A stretch of 22,689 nt of DNA from a virus. The translations under genes were made by a program, and so were the position numbers. The notes beneath the pieces were generated by a model that saw nothing but the letters and a program-made list of their open reading frames with translations, did no database searches and was not told the origin of the DNA. This document shows positions 1,624 to 20,818 of this stretch, piece by piece. The stretch spans positions 3,648 to 26,336 of IMG/VR virus record IMGVR_UViG_3300030090_000024. One strand, written 5' to 3'. The stretch's first letter is position 1. The number at the start of each line of letters is the position of its first letter.

Positions 1624-4251
1624 CTATCCAAATACTATTGCCATAGCAATGGCAAATCCTTTACTAGCTGAACTACCTGCTGCATAAGTTTTTACATCTG
1701 ATGCAGGAATTGTTTTCATTGTTCCGTTATCATTGACTATAAATCCGTCAGCGTCTGCTAGTGTTATTGAACCACCAACAGAGGTATCGCCATCTAGTAA
1801 ATTTATTTCTGATGCAGTTGCTGTAGCACCATCAAGTATATTTAACTCTGCAGCAGTAGATGTTACATTTGTACCACCAATATCTAGCGTTGTCAAGGAT
1901 ACTTCACCTGCAACCGTAACAAGTCCATCTGCAACAGTTATTAAGTCTGTGTCATCTGTGTGACCAATAGTTGAACCGTTAATAAGAACATCATCAATGT
2001 CTAATGAGCCACCAGATATAAGTCCTGTAGTGGTGATAGTAGAAGAACCTGTGTCAATATTTCCAAACCCAGAGGTAATACTACCAGAGTCTAATGCTCC
2101 CACTGTAGTAGCTGCAGTAGTTACAAGGTTAGGCATTGCAGTTATTTCATCATCAAAGTATGCAGCAAGGTCTGTCACAGCCACTTGAACCATAGTGCCG
2201 TTGTCGTTCATAACAACACGGTCTGCATCTGCCACTGTGGTTGATGTAGCAGAAGTATCACCATCTACTATATTAAGCTCTGCTGCTGTACTAGTTACAC
2301 CATCTAAAATATTAAGCTCTGCTCCAGTAGCAGTAACTGCAGTACCACCATAGTTTAAGTTACCTGCACCTATTACAATCTCACCTGTACCTTTAGGAGT
2401 AAGTGCAATACCTATATTAGTGTCTCCTCCTGTAGCCGCAATTATTGGATTGCTACCACTAGCATTGTTAGTAATCTCTAATTGATTTACAGCAGAGCTT
2501 GTTGTTTGAAATACAACTAATTCATTACCGTTAGCATCAGCTATAAAACCACCATCAGCTATCTTAGGTGCAGTGAGTGTTTTATTAGTAAGTGTTGCAG
2601 TTGAAGCAGTTGAAACTAAGTCAACGTCACCGCCTGTGCTTGGAAGTGTTAAAGTGTTTGAAGCTGCTTCTGAGTGTGGTGCTGCTTGAAGTGTTTGTGC
2701 GTGAGCGTTTCCTGACTCGCAGTAAAACTTTATCTGTGATCTTGATCCTGAATTTTTAAGATCAATTAATCCTGATTCAATCCCTACATTACCATCAAGT
2801 AGAACTTGTCCAGAACCCTTTGGTGTTATCTTTAAGCTTATGTTGGTGTCACCGCCTGTTGCAGACAACTCAGGTGCATTACCTGTGGCAGCGTTAGTTA
2901 TGTCAAACTGATTGACTGCAGAACTTGTAGTCTGAAAAATAATCTGCTCATTACCGTTTTCATCAGCAATAAAGTGTGCATCATCAATTAGTATGTTGTG
3001 TGAGTTAGTATCTAAGTTACCACCTAGCTGTGGTGTGGTGTCTTCTACTATGTTTGATATATTACCTGCTACACCAGTACCTGCAATAATAGTGCTACGT
3101 GTAATTTTTTTAAGTCCACCACCAGATGTATCTACAGCTATAAATACATCATCGTCTGCGGCTGTGCTGATCTCAGACAAATCTCCCACAGCAGTAGGAT
3201 TAAAGTTCGTGCCATCTGCAATTAACAAATGTCCTGAAGTATTAGTACCCATAGTAAGATCGTCACCACCAATAGTGAGATCTCCTGTAAGTGTGAGGTT
3301 TCTTATACCAGTGTAGTCTTTGTTAGCATCTAGTACAACTGCTTTAGATGCAATGGCTGTACCCACAGCAGTGCTACCTAAGTCAAGAGCATTAAGCTCT
3401 CCCACTACTGCTGTAATACCATCTAAAGTATTTAGTTCTGCAGCCGTGGCAGTAACACCGTCCATGATGTTAAGTTCAGCAGCAGTAGCAGTTATAGCTG
3501 TACCATTAAAGTTTATTGCATCTGCATGAAGTGTACCGTCAAAGTAACCATCTTTAAATTCAAAAGAACTAGACCCTAAGTCTACGTCATCATCTGTTGT
3601 AGGTAATATTGATCCATTGTTAAAAGTAACCTGTGTCTCACCACCTGTAGTAATGGTAATAACATCAGACCCACTAAACGCTATGCTTGTGTTTGAATCA
3701 GCATCACCTGAAATACTATCTAGTTGTATATCACCTGCGTTAGTAAAGTTAGAGTCGCTAAGATCAAACGTGCCTGTAACATCTAAGTTACCACCTACAG
3801 ATAAGTTTCCTGATATATCGACTGCACCGTTGATGTCAACAGTGGTAGCTGCAATTTGTATTTCAGTGTCAGCAACAAGGTCAAGCTGACCGTCAGTGCT
3901 AGAATTAATATAAATAGCAGTATCACGAAACTGTAACTTTTCTGTCGAAGCAATAAGTATATCATCAGAAAACTCAAAGTAATCCTCATCTTCCATCCAT
4001 TTTAATACACCGTCACTTGTTTCACCATCAAACGTTAGGGTAATATCTGTTCCTGCTGTGCCTAAACCTATAGTAATACTGTGACCTGCAAGCGTAGTTA
4101 TAGGTCCACCTTCTCCAGTTGTACCATCGTGTGTGTGTCCTGTACTAGCAGCAAAGGCGGCAAGAAGCTGATCAAACTCATCATTAGTGTCTGATGCTTG
4201 AATTATGTCACCCTCTGTATACGTGGACTGTCTTGTGTATGTAGCACCCAT
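1624..4251 (-). CDS. Long repeat-rich tail fibre protein
   Basis: 875 residues. The N-terminus (about 1-50) carries the T-x-H-T-H-DGT segment often found at the virion-attachment end of marine phage tail fibres. The body is low in aromatic and charged residues and rich in T, D, G and A. It holds seven AELN-x-x-DG type motifs (AELNIMDG, AELNTLDG, AELNILDG and variants) and two copies of a block of about 60 residues that starts FIADxNGNE and runs through FQTTSSAVNQ and ATGGDTNI to a TPKG turn. The C-terminus ends in a small hydrophobic tail (AIAMAIVFG). The start ATG overlaps the stop of the upstream tail gene by one base (TAATG), which implies translational coupling. Role as host-binding fibre is inferred from family likeness and order. 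Confidence 0.85.
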   Translation of the reverse strand: MGATYTRQSTYTEGDIIQASDTNDEFDQLLAAFAASTGHTHDGTTGEGGPITTLAGHSITIGLGTAGTDITLTFDGETSDGVLKWMEDEDYFEFSDDILIASTEKLQFRDTAIYINSSTDGQLDLVADTEIQIAATTVDINGAVDISGNLSVGGNLDVTGTFDLSDSNFTNAGDIQLDSISGDADSNTSIAFSGSDVITITTGGETQVTFNNGSILPTTDDDVDLGSSSFEFKDGYFDGTLHADAINFNGTAITATAAELNIMDGVTATAAELNTLDGITAVVGELNALDLGSTAVGTAIASKAVVLDANKDYTGIRNLTLTGDLTIGGDDLTMGTNTSGHLLIADGTNFNPTAVGDLSEISTAADDDVFIAVDTSGGGLKKITRSTIIAGTGVAGNISNIVEDTTPQLGGNLDTNSHNILIDDAHFIADENGNEQIIFQTTSSAVNQFDITNAATGNAPELSATGGDTNISLKITPKGSGQVLLDGNVGIESGLIDLKNSGSRSQIKFYCESGNAHAQTLQAAPHSEAASNTLTLPSTGGDVDLVSTASTATLTNKTLTAPKIADGGFIADANGNELVVFQTTSSAVNQLEITNNASGSNPIIAATGGDTNIGIALTPKGTGEIVIGAGNLNYGGTAVTATGAELNILDGVTSTAAELNIVDGDTSATSTTVADADRVVMNDNGTMVQVAVTDLAAYFDDEITAMPNLVTTAATTVGALDSGSITSGFGNIDTGSSTITTTGLISGGSLDIDDVLINGSTIGHTDDTDLITVADGLVTVAGEVSLTTLDIGGTNVTSTAAELNILDGATATASEINLLDGDTSVGGSITLADADGFIVNDNGTMKTIPASDVKTYAAGSSASKGFAIAMAIVFG

Positions 4252-5990
4252 TAGCGTCTAGCTCCTACTTGATATTCTAATTGAAATCCTTTTAGTGAAT
4301 ATGGTGGAGATTCACCACTATCATCTATTTTTAATGCAACAGTAAAACCAGAACCTTCAACAGGCTGTCTTACTAGAGGCTGTGATCCTCCTCCATAAAC
4401 AAACTGTGTAGTAGAAGAGGAGGTACTGTAAACAGATGTACCATACTGCGCTCCTACTGTGGAGGTGGTTAAACTATAAGCTGCAGGTCTTGATGCACCT
4501 ACGCTGTCGTTGTCGTATCTTAAAAGTAAATCTGCGCTGATGTTAGCCTCTGGCTTGTAGTTAAGTATGACTCTGTGCATAGTCTTTCTTACACCTACAT
4601 CTCCGAAGTTTAAGTCTGGACTTCTGTACCTTCCTAGTATGGCTGTACCATCAAAGTTGTTACCTTTTTCTTGACGTTGAACAAAACCGTCAAACGTGCC
4701 GTGTATAACTACAACATCACCTGCTTCTACAAGAGTGTCTGTGCATGATGGTTTAATACCTAGTGACTCAGCAAACTCAAAGCCATCGCCTTTCATAACA
4801 CATATAACACCCTTAGTTCTTTTTTGTGATATAGTATCTTTAGTAAAAAATATTCTGTACTGTGTTTTATCAGGTATGACAACACTTTCAAAAAGGCTAG
4901 AATCTGTTATGTTCTCATCAAATAAAGACTGAACGTTTTTAGATATTGTACCTAACTCAACGTCACCAATCCTAGCTGTACCAGCAACTGTGCGTAAACC
5001 ATCAGGACCAAGAAAGATTAAATCACCTGCAAATTCTTGGATAGTGTTTCCGTTTACACAACCTATGTTTCTAGTCACAGGCTCTACAGCGAAGTTTGCT
5101 AAAGCAGAACCTGTCAGTTTAAATATCCTGTTCTCGCAAAATATAAACAGATTGTCACGAAAAACTTTTAGTCCTACGATAGTATCATCTACATTAATAC
5201 TACCAGCACCATCTCCTGAGTTAAAACCGTCTTCGTCAAAAGGTTCGCTAAATACTATAGTTGATGGTGTCGTAGATTTACCTGCGTAAAACATGTGGTT
5301 TCTAAACGCAGCTACAAACTTTGAACCAGCCACCGTGCTTTCGCTTACATCTGTAGCTGTCATAGATGAATTAAACACCACAGGTGCGTTAGTTCTATCT
5401 ACACATATAAACTTATCATTGCCATCAAAGTTAAATCTTTCAAAGTCATACTTGTCTGCGTTGGTTCTACCTGAATCTCTTTCTGTCCAGTTTTCTGACA
5501 CTGCATCGTCTATAGCGTGATTTGCTGCAGTTGTACTAGACGTTGATCTCGTGACACCTGTAAAGGTTGTGCTAGTTATACCTGTGTAAGTAAACTCTTC
5601 ACTGTTTATTACTAGTGTGCCACTAGATCCAAAACCTGCAGTAGAGTCTACGTTTAACGTACCAGATCCTGTCATAGAAGTTGTTGATACTATTTTTTGC
5701 GACAGCTCTGTTGAACCTGCAGTAAATATCTTTTCACCCCTAGCTGCAACCACCCTGTCAGCAAATCTAGCTGACATCAAAACTTTTTCTGTAGAGCTAG
5801 ATGTTTGTGGCACTATCTGGTTAACGTATTTACGAAAACCATTAATGCGTCTATAACCACCTTCAACGTCAGGCTCAAAGTTTTCTAGAACTAAAGCTTC
5901 ACCTGGTTGCATAAGAAAGGTGGACCTGTTTAAAACTAGCCCACCCTCACAGTTATAAGCTGCTGGTTGTAGTGTTGATGTATCTGGCAT
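4251..5990 (-). CDS. Tail protein, P22 gp10-like stabilization protein candidate
   Basis: 579 residues. The N-terminal part (CEGGLVLNRSTFLMQPGEAL, then ENFEPDVEGGYRRINGFRKY) and the middle (FVAAFRNHMFYAG ... FSEPFDEDGF ... VGLKVFRDNLFIFCENRIFKLTG) match the pattern of podovirus tail stabilization proteins, which are beta-propeller-like and close the portal after packaging (family knowledge). Residues about 100-168 hold an inserted beta module (GTLVINSEEFTYTGI ... FTGVTR ... TTAANH) that also occurs in the next gene upstream. One base separates the start from the stop of that upstream gene. Length is somewhat above the 472 residues of P22 gp10, and the inserted module accounts for much of the difference. 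Confidence 0.65.
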   Translation of the reverse strand: MPDTSTLQPAAYNCEGGLVLNRSTFLMQPGEALVLENFEPDVEGGYRRINGFRKYVNQIVPQTSSSTEKVLMSARFADRVVAARGEKIFTAGSTELSQKIVSTTSMTGSGTLNVDSTAGFGSSGTLVINSEEFTYTGITSTTFTGVTRSTSSTTAANHAIDDAVSENWTERDSGRTNADKYDFERFNFDGNDKFICVDRTNAPVVFNSSMTATDVSESTVAGSKFVAAFRNHMFYAGKSTTPSTIVFSEPFDEDGFNSGDGAGSINVDDTIVGLKVFRDNLFIFCENRIFKLTGSALANFAVEPVTRNIGCVNGNTIQEFAGDLIFLGPDGLRTVAGTARIGDVELGTISKNVQSLFDENITDSSLFESVVIPDKTQYRIFFTKDTISQKRTKGVICVMKGDGFEFAESLGIKPSCTDTLVEAGDVVVIHGTFDGFVQRQEKGNNFDGTAILGRYRSPDLNFGDVGVRKTMHRVILNYKPEANISADLLLRYDNDSVGASRPAAYSLTTSTVGAQYGTSVYSTSSSTTQFVYGGGSQPLVRQPVEGSGFTVALKIDDSGESPPYSLKGFQLEYQVGARR

Positions 5991-8828: not shown

Positions 8829-8856
8829 GTTATATATACTTAATCTACTATGTCAA
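8829..8856 (-). promoter_or_regulatory. Sigma70-type promoter for the capsid gene
   Basis: On the minus strand TTGACA (8851-8856) is a perfect -35 box, followed after 16 nt by TATAAC (8829-8834), five of six matches to the -10 consensus. It lies 8-35 nt past the scaffold stop and faces the capsid gene, about 220 nt upstream of its ATG. It is the best-scoring promoter by eye in the late block. Confidence 0.6.
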
Positions 8857-11070: not shown

Positions 11071-13196
11071 GTTCCTGTGAATCCTTGCTCACCTGGAACT
11101 GGTGCTGTACCTGTGCCTATAGTTCCACCACCTGCACCTGTAGTATCTGCTACCCCTGTACCTGCAGGAGTTGTTGGAGCAGCTTGAGCTTCAGGTGATG
11201 GGGGTGGTGCGACACCTTCAGGTGGTTCTGGTGGTGTAGCAAACTTCTTGAGTATCTCAGCTTGTATAGCTGCATCACCAAGAGAGTTAGTTACTTTGTC
11301 TGGATCTAAGTCCATACTCTTAGCTATCTCTCGTATGATGTAATCTGATTTTACAAAAGGTTGTAGCATAGGATTAGAAGCTACACCCAAGAACTGCATT
11401 AGACGCTGAGATCTTACTTCGTTAGCCATAAGACTTTCTGTGCCTTGAGCTTTTACTTCTAGATCACCTTTGATACCTTCATCGTAGTCAAACTGCATAT
11501 TAAATGCAAAGAACGCCCTACCCATTGGAGCAATAAGATAATCATCTACGTTCTTAACTACGTTCCGTATACTACCGTTGGCAGCAGACATGAGCATAGA
11601 AATACCAGAGGCAGTACGCCCCACACCCTGTATGCCTGTTTGACCGTGTGCAAAAGATGGAAAGCCTGTTGATTCATCTGCTAATACCCTTGCTTTATCA
11701 AATAGCTGCATATTTTCTGCAGCAACGTTTGGAAACTTAGTGCCAAATATGCCTTGACCTGGAGCACCGCCTTGTCTGCGAAAGACCTTGCCAGGATACA
11801 CAGAGAGGTCTTGACCTGGCACTAGGTTGGTTTCATCTACCTCTATAATAAGATTACCACTTAATGCAGCGTTGTCAATAGCCATACGCATAAAACCGTT
11901 CATTAAAGTTTGCGTATCGTCCATGTTTTCTGCAATGCCTACGCCAAAGAAAGAGTATGGGTTTAGTTCATATGGCACAGCATAGTAAGGTATACGTGCT
12001 GGTTTAAATGGATTAAGAACTAAACGTAATACTTTACTGTTACATATCCAAGCATTTACACTTAGTTGTTCTGAGTCTTTTAAATCTTTTGGTATCACTA
12101 CACCATGATCTTCTAGTATAGATGTATCTACGTATCCCCAAAACTCTAGAACTTCGTATCTGTATGGAGCGCTGCTGTACTGTGCATCGTCCTCCATATC
12201 TTGTTCCCAGTATTTCTTTTCGTAGGACTCACCCATATCTATGGCTTCATTGATAGACTCCTCTCTAAAGAAAGGTCTAGACTTTAGGCCACGCATTTGA
12301 GAGCGTGTCATGCGGTGACGTTCCACTACATACTCTGCTTCATCCATGTTGTACGCATCTGGGTCTGGGTAAAAGTTCCAGATAGATACATGGCTTGTAG
12401 ATGGTACAGTCTTTACTGTTGGGTCATACTCACCATCTTCGTTCCAGTTAGCGTACTCTTTGTCTATCGCAAACGGACCTTTCATAATCCCTGTGCCGAA
12501 CAACGCCATCTCAAAAGAAGTGTGGCGCAGTTGTTTATTAGCGCCACTTTCTTCTAACTGATCATGTATTTTCTTTTCCATCTTCTTAGCTGCAATCATA
12601 GCAGGATGAAATGTAACTGTGTCCTGTGTAGTGCCTGGACCCTCTATTATTTTATCGGAAGCATACTCTAGCGTATCCTCTATTGGACCCATACGCTTCA
12701 TGCGGTCATACATGGTTTCGCCAGGTTTCAGTTTATTATCAGGATCAAACAACAATGTAACTGGGGGTTTTTTACCAAAGGCATCTTCTAACTGATCTTG
12801 TGCTTGTTCAGTCTGTGGGTTGATGCTGATGTGCATAGACTCAGCTACACCTTCAGGTAGTGTTGTAGGATTAACTGTAAGGGGGAAACGAGAGCTACCA
12901 AACAAAACATCTACAATCTGCCCATACGCAGCTAGTGTTTTAGTTTTAGTAACCTTAATAAATACGCGAGACTTTTCAGTTTCTGTAAACTGTACGTCTG
13001 TATTGTATAAGCCACGGTAGTTTCTGTAGGCACGTAGCCACCTATTTTCATCTGCAAACCTAGCATCCTCTGCTCTATTAAACTTTGAAGTAACAAAAGC
13101 AACCACACCTTGTGCATCTAGGTCATCTGTTTCTTGGATTACAGACACTTCATCTGTTTCAAATAGTTCACCTTGTTCGTTATCTGTTGTAGCCAT
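11067..13196 (-). CDS. Portal protein (P22-type size)
   Basis: 709 residues, close to the 725 of the P22 portal. It is in the portal position (after TerL, before scaffold and capsid). The N-terminal part carries RAEDARFADENRWLRAYRNY; the middle holds the long helical and beta core (SHVSIWNFYPDPDAYNMDEA, EFWGYVDTSILEDHG, RIPYYAVPYELNPYSFFGVG); the last 70 residues are a P/G/T/A-rich, disordered tail (PPEPPEGVAPPPS and on). The protein forms the dodecameric ring at the packaging vertex (family knowledge). The start overlaps the stop of the 66-residue gene by one base. Confidence 0.85.
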   Translation of the reverse strand: MATTDNEQGELFETDEVSVIQETDDLDAQGVVAFVTSKFNRAEDARFADENRWLRAYRNYRGLYNTDVQFTETEKSRVFIKVTKTKTLAAYGQIVDVLFGSSRFPLTVNPTTLPEGVAESMHISINPQTEQAQDQLEDAFGKKPPVTLLFDPDNKLKPGETMYDRMKRMGPIEDTLEYASDKIIEGPGTTQDTVTFHPAMIAAKKMEKKIHDQLEESGANKQLRHTSFEMALFGTGIMKGPFAIDKEYANWNEDGEYDPTVKTVPSTSHVSIWNFYPDPDAYNMDEAEYVVERHRMTRSQMRGLKSRPFFREESINEAIDMGESYEKKYWEQDMEDDAQYSSAPYRYEVLEFWGYVDTSILEDHGVVIPKDLKDSEQLSVNAWICNSKVLRLVLNPFKPARIPYYAVPYELNPYSFFGVGIAENMDDTQTLMNGFMRMAIDNAALSGNLIIEVDETNLVPGQDLSVYPGKVFRRQGGAPGQGIFGTKFPNVAAENMQLFDKARVLADESTGFPSFAHGQTGIQGVGRTASGISMLMSAANGSIRNVVKNVDDYLIAPMGRAFFAFNMQFDYDEGIKGDLEVKAQGTESLMANEVRSQRLMQFLGVASNPMLQPFVKSDYIIREIAKSMDLDPDKVTNSLGDAAIQAEILKKFATPPEPPEGVAPPPSPEAQAAPTTPAGTGVADTTGAGGGTIGTGTAPVPGEQGFTGT

Positions 13197-13398: not shown

Positions 13399-14967
13399 TT
13401 AATATCCAAAGGTTTTATCTGCAGCTTGAAAGCCTGTTCTGTGAGACATGGGGTTGTAATCCCATAAAGAACTACGTGGCCTTGTCATTATACCATAACG
13501 TAAAGCATCATACAAGTGGTCTTCTGCATTTGTGTCTACATCCTCTGGGTTCTTTTTATCTAAAGGTATCCCTGGAAGTTGTGCTATCATATTGTTGCAA
13601 GTAGAGAAGAACACTAGTCTTGGCTCCTCAGTAAACTCATCTACTTGCAAACGGTGGTGAAGCTCGTTTTTACCTGCCACCCTTGAACCTTTAGATCTAT
13701 CAGATGGCCTCCAACGCAAGCCTTTCTGATTCATCTGTTCAGCCAAAGAAGGGCCAGTGTCTCCACGTTTATGCCACAGGGAGCTATCCAACACACCGTA
13801 CCTGATATTGTCATCTTGTTCTGCATCTAATATCATATCCGCTAAATCTGTTGCTGTAACTCTTGAACAGTATAACTCTCTGTATACTATTAGCTGTTCA
13901 CTTGGACTTACTGCCAACCAAACAACTCCTGTGTAACTTCCGTAGCCATAATCACATGCCCTAAACCTTGCCCAGTTTTTAGGTATGTCGTAAGGTTCGA
14001 CTACGTGTATCTTTCTATTAAACTCAGGAAATGCTGCTCCCTCGTTTACATCCCAGTTCCCTTCTAGTAACTGCTTTCTTTGATGTTCTGGGAGTGATAG
14101 AAGCATGGCTTCGTAATCACCACTCTCAGCTAAATAAGGATTATCAAAGAGACTAGCAGGTATGAACCTTCTTTTGAATAGGGGTTGACCAGCTTTGCTA
14201 TGCCCTTGTGGAAACTTCAGAACCTCACTAGTCTCTATGTCCGTTGCCCAAAATGGCGTGTTAGGCTTTGCTGGGTCAATGAACATCTTCTTAACCCAAG
14301 AGTGACCAGGGCCACCTGGGTTTGTAGTTGCTCTCATGTACAGACCTAAATCTTTGTTTGAACTACGTAGTCTTGATCGCATGTAGTTCCAAGAGTAAGG
14401 ACTGTTCCACTGTGTTAACTCGTCAAATGCTACGTAATTAAACGCCTGACCTTGATAGCGCATTACGTCTGTATCTCTATCCAAGTACGACATCCAAAGT
14501 GTGCCGCCTCTTGGTGTAGTCCATTGCGACTTACGCTCAGACCACTTTATGTTAGGTATTGCTTTAGGGTATAGCTCTTGGCTTTTCTGTATAAGTTCCC
14601 TAAGTTCTTCTGTTGTGTGTCGTACAAGTAGCCCACTAAAGTCTGGACTATTTAAGTTTCGTAACGGATCAGCTAGTGTCGCATAGCTCTTTCCGCCTCC
14701 AGCTGCCCCACCATATAGTACCTCACGTTCAGAAGACGCTAGATATTGTGTTTGTGGACCAGGATTAGGTTGAAATACAACACTCTGTGCGTGGTCTACA
14801 TCGTACTCAGGTGGCTTTACTTGCGCTGGTTTAGCTTCAGTCTTCTTCGTAGGTGTAGGAGCCAGGTCTTTCTTTTTCGAGGATCTCAATTTGACGGAGC
14901 GTTTTTTCGAGCCTTTTGGCATACTGGCGTTTAATCGCAGTAATCCTCTTTCGCTTTCTTTCGACAT
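13399..14967 (-). CDS. terL: Terminase large subunit
   Basis: 522 residues, the DNA packaging motor. Walker A is GGAAGGGKS (residues 86-94), Walker B is FNYVAFDE (176-183) with the catalytic Glu, and the coupling motif is TTNPGGPGHSW (215-224). The nuclease domain shows the expected acidic residues: D339 in RACDYGYGS, D394 in GVLDSS and D483/D487 in EDHLYDALRYG. The N-terminal 60 residues are a basic, P/T/K-rich extension. The start is uncertain: the ATG at 14967 or the one at 14922 (residue 16, MPKGSKKRS); neither has a strong ribosome binding site, and both make the gene overlap the upstream HTH gene (131 or 86 nt). Confidence 0.93.
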   Translation of the reverse strand: MSKESERGLLRLNASMPKGSKKRSVKLRSSKKKDLAPTPTKKTEAKPAQVKPPEYDVDHAQSVVFQPNPGPQTQYLASSEREVLYGGAAGGGKSYATLADPLRNLNSPDFSGLLVRHTTEELRELIQKSQELYPKAIPNIKWSERKSQWTTPRGGTLWMSYLDRDTDVMRYQGQAFNYVAFDELTQWNSPYSWNYMRSRLRSSNKDLGLYMRATTNPGGPGHSWVKKMFIDPAKPNTPFWATDIETSEVLKFPQGHSKAGQPLFKRRFIPASLFDNPYLAESGDYEAMLLSLPEHQRKQLLEGNWDVNEGAAFPEFNRKIHVVEPYDIPKNWARFRACDYGYGSYTGVVWLAVSPSEQLIVYRELYCSRVTATDLADMILDAEQDDNIRYGVLDSSLWHKRGDTGPSLAEQMNQKGLRWRPSDRSKGSRVAGKNELHHRLQVDEFTEEPRLVFFSTCNNMIAQLPGIPLDKKNPEDVDTNAEDHLYDALRYGIMTRPRSSLWDYNPMSHRTGFQAADKTFGY

Positions 14968-15259
14968 CTAATCTTTTTTTTAACCCATCGTGTGTTATAC
15001 TTCTACCTGACTGTGTTGTTAGCCACGCAGCTACTTGTCTTAAACTATATTGCTTTACGTGTTTCTTTGCAAGCTCTAGTAGTTCTAACTGTTCTGGGAT
15101 AGGGTTTAGCCAATCCTCATCCTCTGGGTCTACCTCGTATCCAAAAGGTATATTTTTACTTACCTTCGGAATCCTCTGCCACAGTTTTACTTTAAATGGA
15201 ACTTTAGGTAGTGTCCAATATTCATACTGTAGGGGTCTTTCACTCGTCAGATTCTGCAT
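14837..15259 (-). CDS. HTH protein between TerS and TerL
   Basis: 140 residues. Residues about 71-98 (YSLRQVAAWLTTQSGRSITH and DGLKKRL) read as a helix-turn-helix, followed by a basic helix of about 30 residues (KRKRITAIKRQYAKRLEKT). A DPEDEDWLNPIP segment precedes it. The type is common in marine phages next to the terminase genes and is sometimes annotated as a terminase small subunit or DNA-binding protein. It may help recognise the packaging site (inference). It overlaps the TerS-like gene by 20 nt and TerL by 86-131 nt. Confidence 0.7.
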   Translation of the reverse strand: MQNLTSERPLQYEYWTLPKVPFKVKLWQRIPKVSKNIPFGYEVDPEDEDWLNPIPEQLELLELAKKHVKQYSLRQVAAWLTTQSGRSITHDGLKKRLDVERKRKRITAIKRQYAKRLEKTLRQIEILEKERPGSYTYEED

Positions 15260-15620
15260 TGGTATCCTCTTTAGGTGGCAAGATAAACAAACCTCCTGTA
15301 GACTCTACTGATACTTTCTCTGTTTTAACTACACCTGCACGGTCAAGTATCTGACCTGCAGCCATCAATGTTTCTTTTATACCTAACTGGGTAGGATCGT
15401 CCAAAGCCCTACCATAAGCGACTGCAGCTTTGGGTCCAATCCTTGACATGTACGTTTTAGTAGCGTCAAATATCTCATCCTTCAACCCCTCCACTATAGA
15501 TGTAGTGGGAGTGTTGTCACTATAACCTGCTAACTTCTTAGCCGTAACAGCATCCCCACCTGCTTCCTCAAATAGAACTTCTAGGAACTTAGTTTGTTTC
15601 TCATTTAAAGTTCGTGTCAT
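15240..15620 (-). CDS. Terminase small subunit
   Basis: 126 residues. The N-terminal LNEKQTKFLEVLFEEAGGD followed by AKKLAGYSDNTPTTSIV is the usual DNA-binding start of phage small terminases (LT-x-KQ-x-KF ... AA-x-x-AGYS). A helical middle follows (oligomerization region), and the C-terminus is acidic and probably flexible. Location just before the HTH gene and TerL supports this. It forms the ring that picks the packaging start site (family knowledge). Overlaps the upstream basic gene by 4 nt. Confidence 0.75.
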   Translation of the reverse strand: MTRTLNEKQTKFLEVLFEEAGGDAVTAKKLAGYSDNTPTTSIVEGLKDEIFDATKTYMSRIGPKAAVAYGRALDDPTQLGIKETLMAAGQILDRAGVVKTEKVSVESTGGLFILPPKEDTNAESDE

Positions 15621-15898
15621 TTTACTTTCCTGTAGGCTCTGGTTTTTTTTGCAATTTTCTTAGGTTGAGCCACATGCTGCTTACCTGCCTTAGTGCCTTT
15701 TCGTTTTGCTCTGGTTGTAGCGGCATACTCAGCAGGGCTAAGAGACTTAATAGCCGCACTAGGTAAATAACGCTCACCAGTTTTAGCACTAGGCTTCCCA
15801 CTTTTAGTACGCCACTTTTGTTTTGTCCATGACTTTAAACTTCTTTGAGACTTTTTAAGTGCCATATCAAGCCTTGCAGTCACATCCACACTTGCCAT
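15617..15898 (-). CDS. Basic conserved-type phage protein, unknown
   Basis: 93 residues, very rich in K and R. The middle TKQKWRTKSGKPSAKTGERY-LP and SPAEYAATTRAKRKGTKAGK are recognisable as a pattern seen in many marine and other tailed phages (from memory), with no known function. The high basic charge would suit nucleic-acid binding. It ends in overlap with TerS, so it may belong to the packaging group. Confidence 0.65.
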   Translation of the reverse strand: MASVDVTARLDMALKKSQRSLKSWTKQKWRTKSGKPSAKTGERYLPSAAIKSLSPAEYAATTRAKRKGTKAGKQHVAQPKKIAKKTRAYRKVK

Positions 15899-15952
15899 TA
15901 CACAAGCATTTCCAGTTTAGTATTGCTCTAAGTAATCTTCTAAAGTACCTTT

Positions 15953-16138
15953 TCATCTGTACCCTCCACCTTTTGCTTTGTATTGTTTTGCAAGCATCTG
16001 TGCTTTCCTGGCGCTCCACTGTCCAGGTTTTCCACCTTTGCTGCCAGCTTTAATGGAAGAAAACAAACGCTTACGCATAGTAGGCTTAGTATAATTACCT
16101 GCCTTGTTAACGGTTGATTTTTTTGCTGATTTTGCCAC
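15953..16138 (-). CDS. Small basic phage protein, GTG start
   Basis: 61 residues; the start codon is GTG, with AGG about 10 nt upstream. NKAGNYTKPTMRKRLFSSIK and KGGKPGQWSARKAQMLAKQY are typical of a short basic protein family recurrent in marine phages (from memory), ending in a KGGGYR tail. The overlapping 82-residue frame on the same strand (15940-16188) lacks such a pattern and was not chosen. Likely DNA or RNA binding; unproven. The long hairpin described below lies between this gene and its upstream neighbour. Confidence 0.65.
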   Translation of the reverse strand: MAKSAKKSTVNKAGNYTKPTMRKRLFSSIKAGSKGGKPGQWSARKAQMLAKQYKAKGGGYR

Positions 16139-16174
16139 GAGTAATACCTATGTCTTTTAGTTGTTAGTCTGTTA

Positions 16175-16255
16175 TTAATCTTGTCCACATAAACTATCCT
16201 TTCTTACATTAGTTGTGTACTAAGGATAGTTTTACATATATGTGGACAAGATTAA
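16175..16255. repeat. Long imperfect hairpin (27 bp with asymmetric bulge)
   Basis: Outer arms TTAATCTTGTCCACATA (16175-16191) and TATGTGGACAAGATTAA (16239-16255) are a perfect 17-bp inverted repeat. Inner arms AACTATCCTT (16192-16201) and AAGGATAGTT (16222-16231) add 10 perfect bp. A 7-nt bulge lies on the right side (16232-16238) and the loop is 20 nt. No T-run follows on either strand, so it is not a simple intrinsic terminator. The design resembles RNase III processing hairpins between genes of T7-like phages, or a palindromic protein-binding site. Each outer arm holds TTGTCCACA, one base from a DnaA box. Confidence 0.75.
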
Positions 16256-16268
16256 ATAGACATTATTG

Positions 16269-16281
16269 CATAACCGTTATG
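16269..16281. repeat. Perfect short palindrome CATAAC-c-GTTATG
   Basis: Two 6-bp arms separated by one base, 13 nt beyond the long hairpin and about 13 nt past the stop of the 169-residue gene. It may be an operator-like site or part of the same structured region. Confidence 0.35.
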
Positions 16282-16293
16282 TTAAATACAAAC

Positions 16294-16803
16294 TTATGTA
16301 AACGGAGTTGCTGCAGTACCGTCACCAAATAGATGACCTGTTACCACCCACTTAGAATCAGTGATACATGTGTACTTAATCATACCACCAATAAAGCGTC
16401 CTTTAGTATCACCGTCAGCTACAAGCTGGTGATCTGCTGCTGCAGGACAAGCAAACGCTAGAGTGTCAATGTTTTCGTTTAGTGCAGCTAAACCACCGAC
16501 TTCATCTTTGTCAATCATAGTAATCATACCTTGTAAGGTATCTGAACTTGACGCTGCATCAATTTGCATTGTTCCTGTAAATGTTGTACCTACATGGAAC
16601 TCATAGGTTAGTCCTGCTGCTGCTGCAGGTAGAGTTATAGCAATACCACCTGCTCTGTTAAGAGTAAAGATAGTTCCTGACTCTGCTGCTGTCACTGTTT
16701 TAGTAGCATCTTCGATACTTGTTATCGCTGCTTTGATAGTAGTGAGGGTAATAGGTGTTTCGTATACTTCGATACCCTCTTGCCTTGTTGCCGTTGCTGA
16801 CAT
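16294..16803 (-). CDS. Beta-rich virion-like protein, unknown
   Basis: 169 residues. It has stretches of alternating small and hydrophobic residues (VTAAESGTIFTLNRAGGIAI, LTYEFHVGTTFTG, DTLQGMITMIDK) and a closing DSKWVVTGHLFGDG. The pattern suggests an all-beta protein resembling phage head-decoration or fibre-like domains. No signal peptide or membrane segment. The gene begins within the stop of the upstream gene (1-nt overlap). I cannot name its role. Confidence 0.6.
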   Translation of the reverse strand: MSATATRQEGIEVYETPITLTTIKAAITSIEDATKTVTAAESGTIFTLNRAGGIAITLPAAAAGLTYEFHVGTTFTGTMQIDAASSSDTLQGMITMIDKDEVGGLAALNENIDTLAFACPAAADHQLVADGDTKGRFIGGMIKYTCITDSKWVVTGHLFGDGTAATPFT

Positions 16804-17108
16804 TATTTGTCTCCTTTATAAAACATACCAGACTTTCTGTAGTCTGTTTTTCCGTTGTTAATCATGCCGCCTCTGTTCTTGAAGCCCATTTTGTTTCGTA
16901 CCTCTGTAGGAAGTTTGCCTAAGCCTTTGTTTCCTGCTGGTACATCTTTTAGTTGACCACCTTTAGACATACCCATAGTCTTTGGTTTATCTTTAGGTTT
17001 ACGTTGTTGTTGACCCATCATCATACTACGCTGTCTTTCTTGATCTGCTTGTGTAGGATTATACATAGGTTGTATAGGATTTATAACGTTAGTGTCTTTA
17101 GTTCTCAT
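16803..17108 (-). CDS. Basic, low-complexity protein with GG-K/GG-M motifs
   Basis: 101 residues, rich in Q, K, M and G. It starts INPIQPMYNPTQADQERQR and later has MGMSKGGQLKDVPAGNKGLG, GKLPTEVRNKMGFKNRGGM. Such DVP-x-GNKGL-x-KLPTEVRN-x-MG proteins occur in marine phages (from memory). Shared GG-x-K motifs link it to the next gene, the GGK-repeat protein, and to each other's possible role in DNA condensation or as an internal virion protein (inference). Confidence 0.55.
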   Translation of the reverse strand: MRTKDTNVINPIQPMYNPTQADQERQRSMMMGQQQRKPKDKPKTMGMSKGGQLKDVPAGNKGLGKLPTEVRNKMGFKNRGGMINNGKTDYRKSGMFYKGDK

Positions 17109-17112
17109 AACG

Positions 17113-17406
17113 TTACCCTTTCATAAGTTTATAACCTTTGGCTTTTGCTGCTGAACGAAGGCTAGCTAAAGTCATACCTGACACTTTACCACCGTTAGCC
17201 ATACCTTTTTTCTTCATGGTTTTAACTTTACCGCCATTAGCCATACCTTTTTTCTTCATAGCTTTGACTTTACCGCCATTAGCCATCTTCTTTATTTTAC
17301 CACCTTTAGCCATGCCTTTTTTCTTCATAGCCATTTTACCACCTTTGGCGTAACCTTTTTTCATTTTGCCGCCTCTAGCCATACCTTTCTTTTTCATCTT
17401 TCTCAT
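17113..17406 (-). CDS. GGK-repeat, extremely basic protein
   Basis: 97 residues built of repeats KKKGMAxGGK (six GGK blocks: ARGGKM, AKGGKM, AKGGKI and three ANGGKV). Three neat 42-bp (14-residue) units begin at 17183, 17225 and 17267, with worn copies further upstream in the gene. Many marine phages encode such repeated KGMAKGGK proteins (from memory). A nucleic-acid-binding or condensing role is suggested by composition alone. The C-terminus LASLRSAAKAKGYKLMKG is non-repetitive. It lies 2 nt after the 225-residue gene. Confidence 0.65.
   Translation of the reverse strand: MRKMKKKGMARGGKMKKGYAKGGKMAMKKKGMAKGGKIKKMANGGKVKAMKKKGMANGGKVKTMKKKGMANGGKVSGMTLASLRSAAKAKGYKLMKG
17183..17399 (-). repeat. 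42-bp tandem repeats inside the GGK-repeat gene
   Basis: ACTTTACC-x-x-x-GCC-type units start at 17183, 17225 and 17267 (period 42). They show near-identical sequence in the first two steps, then decay further along. Period divisible by three keeps the frame. This is the only clear tandem DNA repeat in the window; copy number could vary by slippage. Confidence 0.65.
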
Positions 17407-17408
17407 AG

Positions 17409-18086
17409 TCAGTCCTCACTGTATAGATTGTTAAACACTCGTTGCGTATCCCAAACGTACTCTACGTCTTGCTTAGAGTGAAATATGTTTTGGTTAGGTT
17501 TAAAGTCAGGTGCACCTTCTCCAGCTTCAAACCATGCAGGGTGAGTTACCCTCACTCTATTATTAGGCAACGCAACCATGTTGCCAGTATACTCACCTGC
17601 GTCTAACAACTCCAACACGTGTGATTGTTTGTGCTGCGCTGGGTCATCTGCTACCTCACTGCTTGTGTAATCCACAGTAAAGTAGTACTTTGCAGGATAA
17701 AACTCATTGTCTATCTTAGCTATCCACGGAGCAGGAGTTGCTCTGTCTATTACATAAACGGAGTGGGTGTGTGACATACAATCCCACGGTTGCGCTAAGT
17801 AAGGTGGAAGTTCTTGGGGCCACTCCTCTAAAGGGGTATCTGCAACGAGCGCAGTTAGCGGCATCCTAGCCCACATTGCTCCACCGTGCACATTAGGGCT
17901 ATCTTCTTCGTCATCGGACTCATAGCCAGTAAATATTACTTGAAAGCTTAGTGTCCTGTTAGGCATAGTCGTAACTGCTACAACCATACAATGCAAGAAC
18001 TCGCCATGATATTCCTGCATATTCTTTGTGTATTCTCTTCTTACCCACGCTTTGAAGTAGGGTACATTACTTTGTAGATACGCCAT
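17409..18086 (-). CDS. Conserved-type phage protein of 225 residues, unknown
   Basis: It is rich in W, Y, H and E. Landmarks: YFKAWVRREYTKNMQEYHGE, HCMVVAVTTMPNRTLSFQVI, FTGYESDDEEDSPNVHGGAM, LPPYLAQPWDCMSHTHSVYV and HPAWFEAGEGAPDF. The pattern (mixed alpha/beta, many aromatics, several Cys and His) suggests a globular protein; I see no catalytic motif I can name. It overlaps the preceding basic gene by 20 nt. Same kind of gene is seen in marine phage genomes (from memory) without function. Confidence 0.6.
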   Translation of the reverse strand: MAYLQSNVPYFKAWVRREYTKNMQEYHGEFLHCMVVAVTTMPNRTLSFQVIFTGYESDDEEDSPNVHGGAMWARMPLTALVADTPLEEWPQELPPYLAQPWDCMSHTHSVYVIDRATPAPWIAKIDNEFYPAKYYFTVDYTSSEVADDPAQHKQSHVLELLDAGEYTGNMVALPNNRVRVTHPAWFEAGEGAPDFKPNQNIFHSKQDVEYVWDTQRVFNNLYSED

Positions 18087-18372
18087 CTTTTTTGTGTTTC
18101 CTTCGCAAGTCTGCTTTAGCTTGTTTGAAGACGTTAGCTATAGCTGTCTTCCCCATAACTTTAGCACGTTGTTCAGCTACTGTCAATATCTGAATCTTTC
18201 TTGCGTAGGGTTTCTTGATGCGTTTTACTTTAGCTACTGTAGCTCTAGCGTCAGCCATCGTAGCAAACTTAATTGACACTGTATCTTTTGGATTTTCATC
18301 CGTGTATAGTCTGCGTCCAGACCCTTTAGGTTTTTTACCTGTTCCTACTTTTGGGTCTTTTTGCTTTGCCAT
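18067..18372 (-). CDS. Small basic phage protein (KGSGRRLY-type), unknown
   Basis: About 101 residues from the ATG at 18372 (a TTG two codons earlier at 18378 is possible). Very basic: KPKGSGRRLYTDENPKDTVS, KRIKKPYARKIQILTVAEQR and KQAKADLRRKHKKDG. GSGRRLYTDENP and YARKIQILTV look conserved among related phages (from memory). A DNA- or RNA-binding role is inferred only from charge. Overlaps the 49-residue gene by 38 nt. Confidence 0.6.
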   Translation of the reverse strand: MAKQKDPKVGTGKKPKGSGRRLYTDENPKDTVSIKFATMADARATVAKVKRIKKPYARKIQILTVAEQRAKVMGKTAIANVFKQAKADLRRKHKKDGVSTK

Positions 18373-18484
18373 TACCAACTATACCTTTTAAAGTTTTTGC
18401 TTGTCCTGCATGTAGCTTAGAGGCTTTGTTCAAACCTTTAATTACTTTTTTTACTTTTGCCTTACCTCTTCTTGTTAGAGCCAT
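18335..18484 (-). CDS. 49-residue basic protein
   Basis: Start chosen at the ATG (18484) preceded by AGAGGA, not the upstream frame opening, because the 18 residues before it look unrelated. The protein is basic: MALTRRGKAKVKKVIKGLNK then ASKLHAGQAKTLKGIVGNGK. Unknown function. Overlaps both neighbours, which fits tightly coupled small-gene translation. Confidence 0.5.
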   Translation of the reverse strand: MALTRRGKAKVKKVIKGLNKASKLHAGQAKTLKGIVGNGKAKRPKSRNR

Positions 18485-18605
18485 TTTTTTTCCTCTTTGC
18501 TTTACTAGGTAGTAAACCTTTACTAACTGCACGAGCACGTTCAGAAAAACCCATCTTTTCTCCTGTACGTATCTTTCGTTTGATAGTAGATACTTTAGCT
18601 ACCAT
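18462..18605 (-). CDS. 47-residue basic protein (SERARAVSKGLLP)
   Basis: Short gene easily missed: 47 codons from the ATG at 18605, which overlaps the end of the upstream gene (AAGCATGGTAG). It reads VAKVSTIKRKIRTGEKMGFS then ERARAVSKGLLPSKAKRKK. An internal ATG at 18554 with a GGAGAA ribosome binding site would give 30 residues and is a fair alternative start. The cationic composition matches its neighbours. Confidence 0.5.
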   Translation of the reverse strand: MVAKVSTIKRKIRTGEKMGFSERARAVSKGLLPSKAKRKKNGSNKKR

Positions 18606-18883
18606 GCTTTGCAGGACCAGTATCTTGCAGTAAATTTATCTTTTGCTGTATCACATTTGTGTCGAGCACGAAAACTTTTACGTGCAGCAGCGTTGTCTTT
18701 ACGGATAGGCATGTTAGGATCTCCAAAGCGAACTACTTTTACTTCGTCACCCTTCTTAGCTAAAACGGCTGACTTCTTAGATTCACCTGATAGTCGTTTA
18801 ACTTTGTTGTACCCTGGGAATATCTCACCACGATACTTTAGTTTACCACTTGGGAGTCGTTCTACATCTTTAGTTGTTGCCAT
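18599..18883 (-). CDS. 94-residue protein with cysteine-bearing end, unknown
   Basis: Pattern LPSGKLKYRGEIFPGYNKVK, KKGDEVKVVRFGDPNMPIRK and DNAAARKSFRARHKCDTAKD, ending TARYWSCKAW. The KVVRFGDPNMPIRKDNAAAR and FRARHKCD ... YWSCKAW motif is recurrent in phage proteins (from memory), and it has two conserved-looking cysteines and one histidine, which could bind a metal. Function unknown; no ribosome binding site conflict, start at 18883. Confidence 0.65.
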   Translation of the reverse strand: MATTKDVERLPSGKLKYRGEIFPGYNKVKRLSGESKKSAVLAKKGDEVKVVRFGDPNMPIRKDNAAARKSFRARHKCDTAKDKFTARYWSCKAW

Positions 18884-18892
18884 TAGTAAACC

Positions 18893-18967
18893 TCAACTAG
18901 TTATTAAAGCTAGTGTAATTAAACCCATCCATACAGTAATTACTGCCACTGTTAAATATGTATTCAT
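18893..18967 (-). CDS. 24-residue membrane microprotein
   Basis: ATG at 18967 with AAAGG about 8-9 nt upstream; 24 codons. It is almost wholly hydrophobic: NTYLTVAVITVWMGLITLAL followed by ITS, one clear membrane helix. It starts 11 nt after the stop of a single-TM coiled-coil gene. Membrane insertion is likely; a role as holin-like or spanin-partner peptide is a guess from location and size. Confidence 0.5.
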   Translation of the reverse strand: MNTYLTVAVITVWMGLITLALITS

Positions 18968-18978
18968 AGTTCTACCTT

Positions 18979-19335
18979 TTATTTTCTAGGATCAAGCATT
19001 TCCATATGTTCACGATTCATAAACTTCAAACTGTTCTCCATTAAAGCCATGCGTTGTTGCAAAGCAGTAATAGCGCCTATAGTTTTAGTTAAGCTTTCTG
19101 TTTCTTCCCACAGTTCTTCTATCTCAGCAAATGCACCATCAATATAATCCATATTTTCTAGCACATCACGCTTTAGATTAACGCTATCTTCTACAGCCAT
19201 CTTACTGGCAAACTGTTCTACTGTTTCTTCTAGGCTTGATATAGTAGCAGCTTGTTGTGATACCCACCACACACCACCTGCTAGTTGTACACCCATTGCT
19301 ACTACAAGTGCTATAGGTAGTTTTACGTTATCCAT
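18979..19335 (-). CDS. Single-TM, coiled-coil protein (spanin-like candidate)
   Basis: 118 residues from the ATG at 19335, preceded by GAGGG with 9-nt spacing; the ATG two codons earlier (19341) is too near that site. Residues 5-24 form a membrane helix (KLPIALVVAMGVQLAGGVWW), followed by a long charged coiled-coil (SSLEETVEQFASKMA ... AEIEELWEETESLTKTIGA ... LQQRMALMENSLKF). Layout N-terminal TM plus coiled-coil is that of inner-membrane spanins or other phage membrane proteins. No endolysin is seen in the window, so a lysis role is open. Overlaps the 90-residue gene by 8 nt. Confidence 0.6.
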   Translation of the reverse strand: MDNVKLPIALVVAMGVQLAGGVWWVSQQAATISSLEETVEQFASKMAVEDSVNLKRDVLENMDYIDGAFAEIEELWEETESLTKTIGAITALQQRMALMENSLKFMNREHMEMLDPRK

Positions 19336-19600
19336 CTGCATATTCCCTCTTTCTGTCAGGGTCTAACACTTCGTGTCTCTCTAAATGTCCTTCTAGGTAC
19401 ATAGCTCTTTCTACATGATCTAATGTGTACCACTCTCCAGTACGATTATAGATAGCTTCTCGTACATAGAATACATCCGACTTAGGGATGTGTACTTTTT
19501 TCATAGCATACGAGTTATTAGATGCTAATGCGTTGTAAAAATCCTCTAGAACACTTTCACTTTGACATAGTTGTACTCTTTTATTTCTCATTGTCAACAC
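19328..19600 (-). CDS. First gene of the leftward block, unknown 90-residue protein
   Basis: GTG start at 19600 or ATG at 19591 (MRNKRVQLCQ); no strong ribosome binding site for either. Sequence: ESVLEDFYNALASNNSYAMK, KVHIPKSDVFYVREAIYNRT, GEWYTLDHVERAMYLEGHLE, then a DPDRKREYADG tail. FYVREAIYNRTGEWYTLDHV and YLEGHL look like a conserved helix-rich phage motif. No function is known to me. It is the first gene after the divergent control region. Confidence 0.6.
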   Translation of the reverse strand: MLTMRNKRVQLCQSESVLEDFYNALASNNSYAMKKVHIPKSDVFYVREAIYNRTGEWYTLDHVERAMYLEGHLERHEVLDPDRKREYADG

Positions 19601-19623: not shown

Positions 19624-19701
19624 AAGTGTTACAGATACAAATATGGTAGGGAGAGAGGAGACACATGGGAGGAGCTTTACCACACTGTGTCTGTAACACT
19701 T
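19624..19701. repeat. 16-bp inverted repeat flanking a purine/pyrimidine-rich stretch
   Basis: AAGTGTTACAGATACA (19624-19639) and TGTGTCTGTAACACTT (19686-19701) pair with a single mismatch; an inner TGGTA/TACCA adds 5 bp. On the minus strand the left arm is followed by a run of T (ACTTTTTTCC), so it could serve as an intrinsic-type terminator or antitermination site just before the leftward block. On the plus strand the loop is purine-rich (GGGAGAGAGGAG). Confidence 0.6.
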
Positions 19702-19743
19702 ATAGTTTAACTATAGTTTAGTTATTATTATAGTTATAACGTA

Positions 19744-19773
19744 ATAGTATCATAGTTTAACTAGTAGTGTCAA
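19744..19773 (-). promoter_or_regulatory. Leftward promoter candidate with embedded AGTTTAACT
   Basis: On the minus strand TTGACA (19768-19773) is a perfect -35 box, followed after 18 nt by TACTAT (19744-19749, four of six). One AGTTTAACT copy (19754-19762) fills the spacer. It faces the 90-residue gene about 145 nt away and would read through the 16-bp inverted repeat first. Confidence 0.4.
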
Positions 19774-19797
19774 TATATTTATTTAATTAATTGGTAG

Positions 19798-19826
19798 TTT
19801 AACTTTAAGTTTAACTATTTTATAAT
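19798..19826 (+). promoter_or_regulatory. Rightward promoter candidate with embedded repeats
   Basis: TATAAT at 19821-19826 is a perfect -10 box; 17 nt upstream TTTAAC (19798-19803) is a poor -35. Two AGTTTAACT copies overlap or fill the spacer. It could start the rightward transcript about 990 nt before the first rightward gene. Confidence 0.3.
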
Positions 19827-19879
19827 CGTTTTATAGAAGTTTTAACTTTAAAGTTTAACTAAGCTACTTCTACTTCGTA

Positions 19880-19907
19880 GTTTTACACGGATTTACACCC
19901 AAGTCAA
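19880..19907 (-). promoter_or_regulatory. Second leftward promoter candidate
   Basis: On the minus strand TTGACT (19902-19907) and TAAAAC (19880-19885), spacing 16 nt. Both boxes match at four to five of six positions. It lies upstream of the AGTTTAACT cluster. Confidence 0.3.
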
Positions 19908-20092
19908 CCCTAAAAGTACACCTAGTTGCATTATTATCACGGTGTGTAGCCCTTTGTATACACTAAAATAGGGCAAAACTCAAAATCTGGTGTGTTGCAG
20001 TGTACATATACATATACGGTAGACCCCCCGATGGCCCTCGCACGGTACAAAACGTGAACAAAACTAGAACTGGAGAACAAAAAAAGAACGAA

Positions 20093-20122
20093 TCAGGTAC
20101 AAACCTGGATTTTATTTTCTTC
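20093..20122 (+). terminator. Weak rho-independent terminator-like hairpin
   Basis: CAGGT-ACAA-ACCTG (20094-20107), extended by a T-G wobble, is followed by a T-rich tail (TTTTATTTTCTTC). Stem is short (5-6 bp), so it may be partial. If real it would cut off rightward transcripts from the AT-rich promoter region, or be regulated. Confidence 0.35.
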
Positions 20123-20610
20123 AATATGTAAAACTCCGGTGTAAAGCATTGTATTTACTACATAAAATTACAGATGAGTTGTCAGTATCTAGAGAATATG
20201 TGAAAAAAAGAGCGAATATTTCACGGGAAGTAAAGTCTTTGAAATGGATGCACAAAACACCTAGCAAAACAAAAAGAAAAAAAAGCACACATATTAATAC
20301 ACGAAAAAAAGTACACCCCATATCAAAAAAAGTACTTGCAATTATTTTCAAAGTATGGGCATGATAAGAACATGGAAAGCTGAACATCGCTAAACACTCG
20401 AAAGATTAAGTTTACAACATGAAGCACCTGCAAGCCCTAGCAATCAAGAGGGGTAAGAATACAAAGACTAAACAAACTAAAAATAAAACTTGACTAACTA
20501 AACTAAAACTGAAAGACTAAATACAACAAGCCCTAGTGTATGGATTTACACAAGCTGACCAAATGAACTAGACTAAGGAACTAGTAAAGCTGTCTGATGG
20601 AAGTGACGCA

Positions 20611-20767
20611 GGTATACGTGCTATATGGCCAAAACTATATAGCATACAGCAGGAGGTGCATTGAAACCATGCGCTAGAGAACGGTGACTTGAATCAGTCC
20701 GTCTTCAGGAGAGAGTGTCTTTTTCTTGGACACATAAGCAGCTAATTGAGGCCAACCTCAACTTATG
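20611..20767 (+). ncRNA. Candidate structured RNA, several consecutive hairpins
   Basis: Five hairpins follow one another: TGCTATAT (20619-20626)/ATATAGCA (20637-20644); GTGCAT (20656-20661)/ATGCGC (20669-20674); ACG plus GACT pairing with AGTCCGT (20681-20702, 2-nt bulge); GTGTC/GACAC (20715-20733); and CATAAG (20733-20738) plus TTGAGG-CCAA-CCTCAA with CTTATG (20762-20767), a 12-bp stem with a 7-nt bulge. This density is far above the neighbouring DNA. Lies just before the first rightward gene. Could be a leader, riboswitch-like element or phage small RNA; no known family recognised. Confidence 0.4.
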
Positions 20768-20768
20768 C

Positions 20769-20797
20769 TTGACATATGGGTTGCTTGTGTGTCTATC
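20769..20797 (+). promoter_or_regulatory. Rightward promoter candidate before the 65-residue gene
   Basis: Perfect -35 TTGACA (20769-20774) but a weak -10 (TCTATC at 20792-20797 with 17-nt spacing, or TATCTA at 20794). The start would fall just before the ribosome binding site AAGGAG (20807-20812), so the mRNA leader would be very short. Confidence 0.35.
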
Positions 20798-20818
20798 TAA
20801 AAAGATAAGGAGTATATC

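Follow-up and report, generated by a model that had tools for sequence, protein, structure and literature searches.

A probable RNA lock and embedded promoter for DUF1127 translation in HMO-2011-type phages, orphaned in one phage by a gene deletion

What is the role of an 81-nt hairpin that lies directly ahead of the packaging genes of a marine phage? The stretch of DNA in which it occurs, hereafter the window, covers 22,689 nucleotides (positions 3,648 to 26,336) of a 26,336-base virus record, IMGVR_UViG_3300030090_000024. A preliminary description of the locus proposed an RNase III site, a switch or a DNA-level element. We compared the hairpin with its counterparts in related phages, and find that it probably belongs to a conserved device controlling translation of a DUF1127 gene, which this phage has lost.

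Geometry of the hairpin

Since the minus strand carries all the surrounding genes (13399-19600), the relevant RNA is the one of that strand, read from 16255 to 16175. Its outer 5′ arm, TTAATCTTGTCCACATA (16239-16255), forms 17 perfect base pairs with the outer 3′ arm, TATGTGGACAAGATTAA (16175-16191); the inner 5′ arm, AACTATCCTT (16222-16231), forms 10 perfect pairs with the inner 3′ arm, AAGGATAGTT (16192-16201). Between the two 5′ arms lies a one-sided 7-nt bulge, TATGTAA (16232-16238). These are exactly the arms and the bulge given in the preliminary description. The 20-nt loop (16202-16221) contains a small stem, TTAGT/ACTAA, previously suspected of competing with the main one: it is present, but has only two bases (16222-16223) in common with the inner stem and is essentially a nested hairpin, seen in the loops of many relatives as well.

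The structure is beyond chance, as had been supposed: z-scores of the RNA fold are -9.4 for the plus strand and -6.8 for the minus strand, and on either strand none of 200 shuffled sequences folds as stably. In stability it ranks near the top of all 101-nt stretches in the window, whose most stable single-strand fold is found at about 11111-11251 (+), in the coding region for the proline/glycine-rich C-terminus of the portal gene. No T-run or U-run follows the stem on either strand, so we agree that it is not an intrinsic terminator. The hairpin has no Rfam covariance-model match above the gathering score, and no second copy of the palindrome occurs in the virus record. We thus rejected a mobile or repeated palindrome; a similar 17-mer in three other loci (L102, L105 and L117) is due to chance.

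A DUF1127 gene and its deletion

The window belongs to the HMO-2011-type roseophage group: its terminase large subunit shares 69-79% identity with its counterparts in roseophages such as CRP-2, CRP-603, CRP-207 and CRP-13 and in HMO-2011. In relatives of this group, the 3′ arm is made of the Shine-Dalgarno sequence, the start codon and the first codons of a gene for a DUF1127 small protein, with a reading frame that opens within the arm: AAGGATAGTTT ATG TGG ACA AGA TTA ... Two of the products match Pfam DUF1127 (PF06568) with 24.7 and 33.2 bits, against a cut-off of 23.3, a third example falling just below it with 22.8; the best E-value among the relatives' products is 4e-8. Of the first 95 loci that we examined, most have the gene, among them those of ten named roseophages (CRP-1, 2, 3, 9, 13, 207, 235, 345, 603 and 738). 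Among the records compared, only that of CRP-603 annotates it as DUF1127; in other isolates it is usually a 'hypothetical protein', and in CRP-13 (MW514247, locus L087, about 4688-4849) the gene and its leader fall between gp61 and gp60, where nothing is annotated.

In the window, the inner 3′ arm still contains the Shine-Dalgarno motif AAGGA (16201-16197) and the outer 3′ arm the former start codon (16190-16188). Alignment to two full-gene loci (L003 and L005) shows an in-frame deletion of 78 nt from the middle of the gene, together with a new stop, which leaves a truncated frame, MWTRLITD* (16164-16190, minus strand). A relic of the C-terminus, QLKDIGITRGKISKKINR* (16107-16163, minus strand), extends into the beginning of the next gene; the latter encodes a basic protein of 61 amino acids of unassigned function (phrog_17747; 15953-16138, minus strand). 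The same deletion allele is found in four further contigs, therefore an assembly error is unlikely.

On the upstream side, the hairpin is preceded by a gene for a 169-aa protein (16294-16803, minus strand). Many relatives (L003, L004, L025 and L041 among them) carry extra small ORFs of about 300 nt between this gene and the sequence block described below, as if the site were a point of gene exchange. Farther upstream, the window has a lysine/glycine-rich gene made of 'KKKGMA(R/N)GGK' units (17113-17406, minus strand; repeats of about 42 nt), with related repeats in relatives.

Conserved pairing over the ribosome-binding site

With the Shine-Dalgarno motif and the start codon both in the 3′ arms, the inner 5′ arm is an anti-Shine-Dalgarno sequence and the outer 5′ arm pairs with the start codon and the first codons. 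We collected 160 DUF1127 leaders and grouped them at below 80% identity into 37 families: 36 of phage loci and one of a bacterial leader (L202). Stem sequences differ among the families, for instance ACTATCCTT/AAGGATAGT, ACTACTCCT/AGGAGTAGT, TAGTCTCCG/CGGAGACTA, GCTCCAGTTGGT/ACTAACTGGAGC and AAACTCTCCTTAGT/ACTAAGGAGAGTTT, and pairing is kept through compensatory change; this comparison had been proposed in the preliminary description as a test of the stem. Over the 37 families, the mean duplex energy is -16.1 kcal/mol for each leader's own arms and -11.8 kcal/mol with swapped 5′ arms; none of 20000 arm-swap permutations equals the true pairing, in a set with script-selected start codons and stems, whose families are related and thus do not count as independent trials. 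In an alignment of 28 rows, 83% of the cells are paired, against at most 53% when the arms are slid. Two-sided changes occupy 29 of its cells; shuffles give 11, and slid arms no more than 10. Covariation scores 0.381 versus 0.233 (0/500).

The pairing is predicted to be costly for the ribosome. Opening the Shine-Dalgarno sequence takes a median of 8.6 kcal/mol in the 36 phage families and 3.1 kcal/mol in 141 other genes, taken from CRP-1, CRP-738 and HMO-2011 (P = 4e-15); for the window's leader the value is 10.2 kcal/mol. Outside the window's clade, the continuous stem usually has only 5-14 bp: the long outer stem is special to this clade, where its few changes all preserve pairing, one pair being seen as U-A, U-G and C-G. 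A few families (L064, L193, L194 and L167) have a weak stem or no clear one. Altogether, prediction and covariation strongly support occlusion of the ribosome-binding site by the hairpin, and the earlier view of a cis-regulatory RNA structure directly ahead of the packaging genes is borne out.

We do not see a conserved aptamer-like core in the leaders, whose loops vary widely in sequence and length. A single-protein genome scan for DUF1127 matched one MAG. The combination of stem and promoter is absent from 34 bacterial DUF1127 leaders; we rejected a host origin of the phage leader on the difference from these, a sample to which the phages' true hosts do not belong.

A predicted promoter inside the hairpin

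Upstream of the stem lies a partly palindromic block with the consensus GCATAACGGGKWTGCAAT (short form GCATAACGGGKWTGCA). In the window it reads ACATAACGGTTATGCAAT (16265-16282, minus strand; weight-matrix score 22.3, a single match in the window). The predicted -10 element, TAAAAC (16229-16234, minus strand), follows 30 nt after the block; most relatives have TATAACTA at this place, and TAAAAC is weaker than TATAAC. With the TATG before it, it takes up most of the bulge, and also the edge of the inner 5′ arm; the bulge is the predicted extended -10 region. From the position of the -10, transcription is predicted to start at 16222 (±2; minus strand), which places the block at about -60 to -43. 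An RNA begun there would lack the outer 5′ arm and keep only the last base of the inner one, and in it the predicted cost of opening the Shine-Dalgarno sequence falls to 1.9 kcal/mol.

The geometry of this candidate promoter is fixed across the group. A -10-like hexamer begins 30-33 nt from the block's end (sd 0.7) in each of the 33 families whose block is clear, whereas the distances from the block to the ATG (sd 9) and to the arm (sd 15) drift. Upstream of DUF1127, TATAACTA is found in 28 of 36 families, against 2 of 89 control leaders. It usually lies across the blocking arm's 5′ edge, and a predicted RNA starting 7 nt past it misses most or all of that arm. In CRP-235 and CRP-738 the arms lie elsewhere and TGnTATAAT is in the loop, at an unchanged distance from the block. 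Every family has a -10-like motif before or inside the hairpin, and RNA begun there is predicted to be mostly open. A second -10 is present in 14 of the 36 families (TTGCA-N17-TATAAC, 16 nt from the block), and transcripts begun at it would retain the hairpin. The embedded promoter itself has no -35 hexamer, and for this reason a sigma-70 promoter scan of the window did not pick it up.

The block is tied to the DUF1127 gene. A weight-matrix scan of the isolates and the window gives one strong match per genome, ahead of DUF1127; the block is therefore not a genome-wide element, and we rejected a general late-promoter motif. We count 150 loci with both DUF1127 and the block plus -10, and 27 with neither. 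All 10 block-only loci, some of them duplicates of one contig, carry the window's deletion allele, and the 14 gene-only loci are apparently due to contig edges or divergent blocks. Block plus -10 is found only ahead of DUF1127 or of its relic, the latter in the window and the four other contigs. A sigma-54 reading of CGGGGTTGCA was rejected by inspection, the spacing being wrong. Elsewhere in the window, a promoter-like site, TTGACA-N16-TATAACTA, lies ahead of the presumed coat gene (8829-8856, minus strand); the same arrangement precedes this gene in CRP-1 (L096, 40765, minus strand) and in HMO-2011 (L098, 27596, minus strand).

A probable lock opened by local transcription, and its alternatives

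Taken together, the most probable reading of these sequences is an RNA lock with an embedded promoter that controls DUF1127 translation, orphaned in the window's phage by the gene deletion. In read-through RNA from the upstream late genes, the 5′ arm would be present and would lock the Shine-Dalgarno sequence and start codon in the stem. RNA begun at the embedded promoter would have its first base where the 5′ arm ends or within the loop, which would leave it translatable. DUF1127 would then be made only when the embedded promoter is in use, as is the case of T4 lysozyme and I-TevI with their own promoters. Use of the -10, the timing of this use, the exact start point and the binding of a factor to the block are our inferences. 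The read-through transcript likely starts in an AT-rich divergent region (19700-20800) between the minus-strand late genes and plus-strand genes, where several promoter-like sites occur (TTGACA at 19773, minus strand). More speculatively, and with some doubt on our part, the device may be a dedicated, activator-dependent promoter plus lock, present once per genome and evolved independently of T4, that ties expression of one host-like small protein to the place where transcription begins, and in which the tandem -10s, 14-15 bp apart in many phages, form an off/on pair: the distal start would give locked RNA and the proximal start open RNA.

The main rival is an occluding switch opened by a ligand, by temperature or by a protein such as the DUF1127 protein itself, with the TATAAC sites serving an upstream promoter that keeps the hairpin. 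Occlusion and covariation are strong in its favour, a hairpin-retaining TTGCA-N17-TATAAC promoter does occur in the 14 families mentioned above, a host DUF1127 gene is under leader control (PMC12218461), and RNA binding is described for the DUF1127 relative CcaF1 (PMC10253847). The masking stem is shared with RNA thermometers and translational riboswitches, yet the phage leaders differ from these by the missing sensing domain and Rfam match, by their variable loops and by the embedded promoter geometry; a switch would also leave unexplained why a -10 stays 30-33 nt from the block even when it lies in the loop. We hold it to be unlikely. The reading of the window's own hairpin as a recent relic, its pairing no longer under selection, is compatible with the lock at the level of the family, and we lean slightly towards it. 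The DUF1127 frame is broken, and the presumed TerS of the deletion allele (L001) is 100% identical to those of full-gene relatives (L002 and L003), which makes the loss recent; persistence of the stem is thus weak evidence for a function independent of the gene. Against a relic, the window's stem is perfect and changes among deletion alleles preserve its pairing. As an orphan, the hairpin would at most still provide promoter activity to the packaging genes.

The proposals of the preliminary description fare less well, and its interpretation is on the whole partly supported. T7-type phages have RNase III processing stems, long ones located between late genes. A cut in the late transcript before the packaging genes would suit the 27 bp of the window's clade, enough for RNase III, and the position between gene blocks. 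With continuous stems of 5-14 bp in most families, too short for typical cleavage of a near-perfect helix of about 20 bp or more, and with placement over the Shine-Dalgarno sequence and AUG as the conserved feature rather than stem length, we regard it as very improbable. A DNA palindrome, be it a DnaA-box replication origin or a pac/cos site for packaging, is harder still to credit. The motif TTGTCCACA is indeed present in both arms (16181, plus strand; 16249, minus strand) and is one base off a DnaA box, some 0.5 kb ahead of the presumed gene for the terminase small subunit, but it is a single motif on opposite strands, as in any inverted repeat. Its complement spells the codons ATG TGG ACA A, the motif is confined to the window's clade and missing from all other families, and the exact DnaA box TTATNCACA does not occur in the window. 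What likely survives of a DNA-level role is that of a promoter, since the bulge carries the -10 element.

The preferred reading, a lock with an embedded promoter, has a close parallel in T4, whose genes e, soc, 49 and I-TevI have hairpins that occlude the ribosome-binding site and embed late promoters (PMC3014915, PMC2988022). Both systems sequester the Shine-Dalgarno sequence and/or AUG in a stem of the read-through transcript, keep this arrangement in related phages despite sequence changes, and have a promoter in the 5′ strand of the stem, giving short RNAs without that strand; in the marine phages such transcripts are predicted from the promoter spacing and opening energies, both sequence-derived. 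In addition, TATAACTA resembles the T4 late TATAAATA. However, the marine phages are unrelated to T4 and the gene is DUF1127. The gp55-dependent TATAAATA of T4 functions without a -35, as TATAACTA or TAAAAC would here, but the marine -10 is paired with a conserved block about 50 bp before the start, the same -10 stands with TTGACA at the coat-gene promoters, and many families have a second, hairpin-keeping promoter 14-15 bp upstream. The phage hairpin is apparently a new, convergent variant of the T4-type control device.

Cellular members of DUF1127 include the RNA-binding CcaF1 and regulators described as acting on PhoR (PMC12501420). Control of a DUF1127 gene through its mRNA leader, with a ribosome-binding site masked by RNA structure, is shared with duf1127_1 of Sinorhizobium meliloti. 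In S. meliloti, transcription attenuation is governed by an upstream ORF that has a masked site of its own, in a 279-nt leader (PMC12218461), whereas the phage leaders mask the site of DUF1127 itself and we noted no upstream ORF of that kind.

HMO-2011-type phages have been described as a dominant marine group with a broad distribution (PMC9038755). In the openly accessible literature on HMO-2011-type and RCA phages that we searched, we found no mention of promoters or of DUF1127. Hairpin and block together give these phages a control point defined by sequence, from which the spacing rule predicts the start site to about 2 nt. They also mark a small gene, unannotated or 'hypothetical' in many such genomes, as a tightly regulated DUF1127 protein. 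Our results suggest that unrelated phages have evolved anew the trick of T4 gene e, where folding distinguishes RNA begun locally from RNA that reads through.
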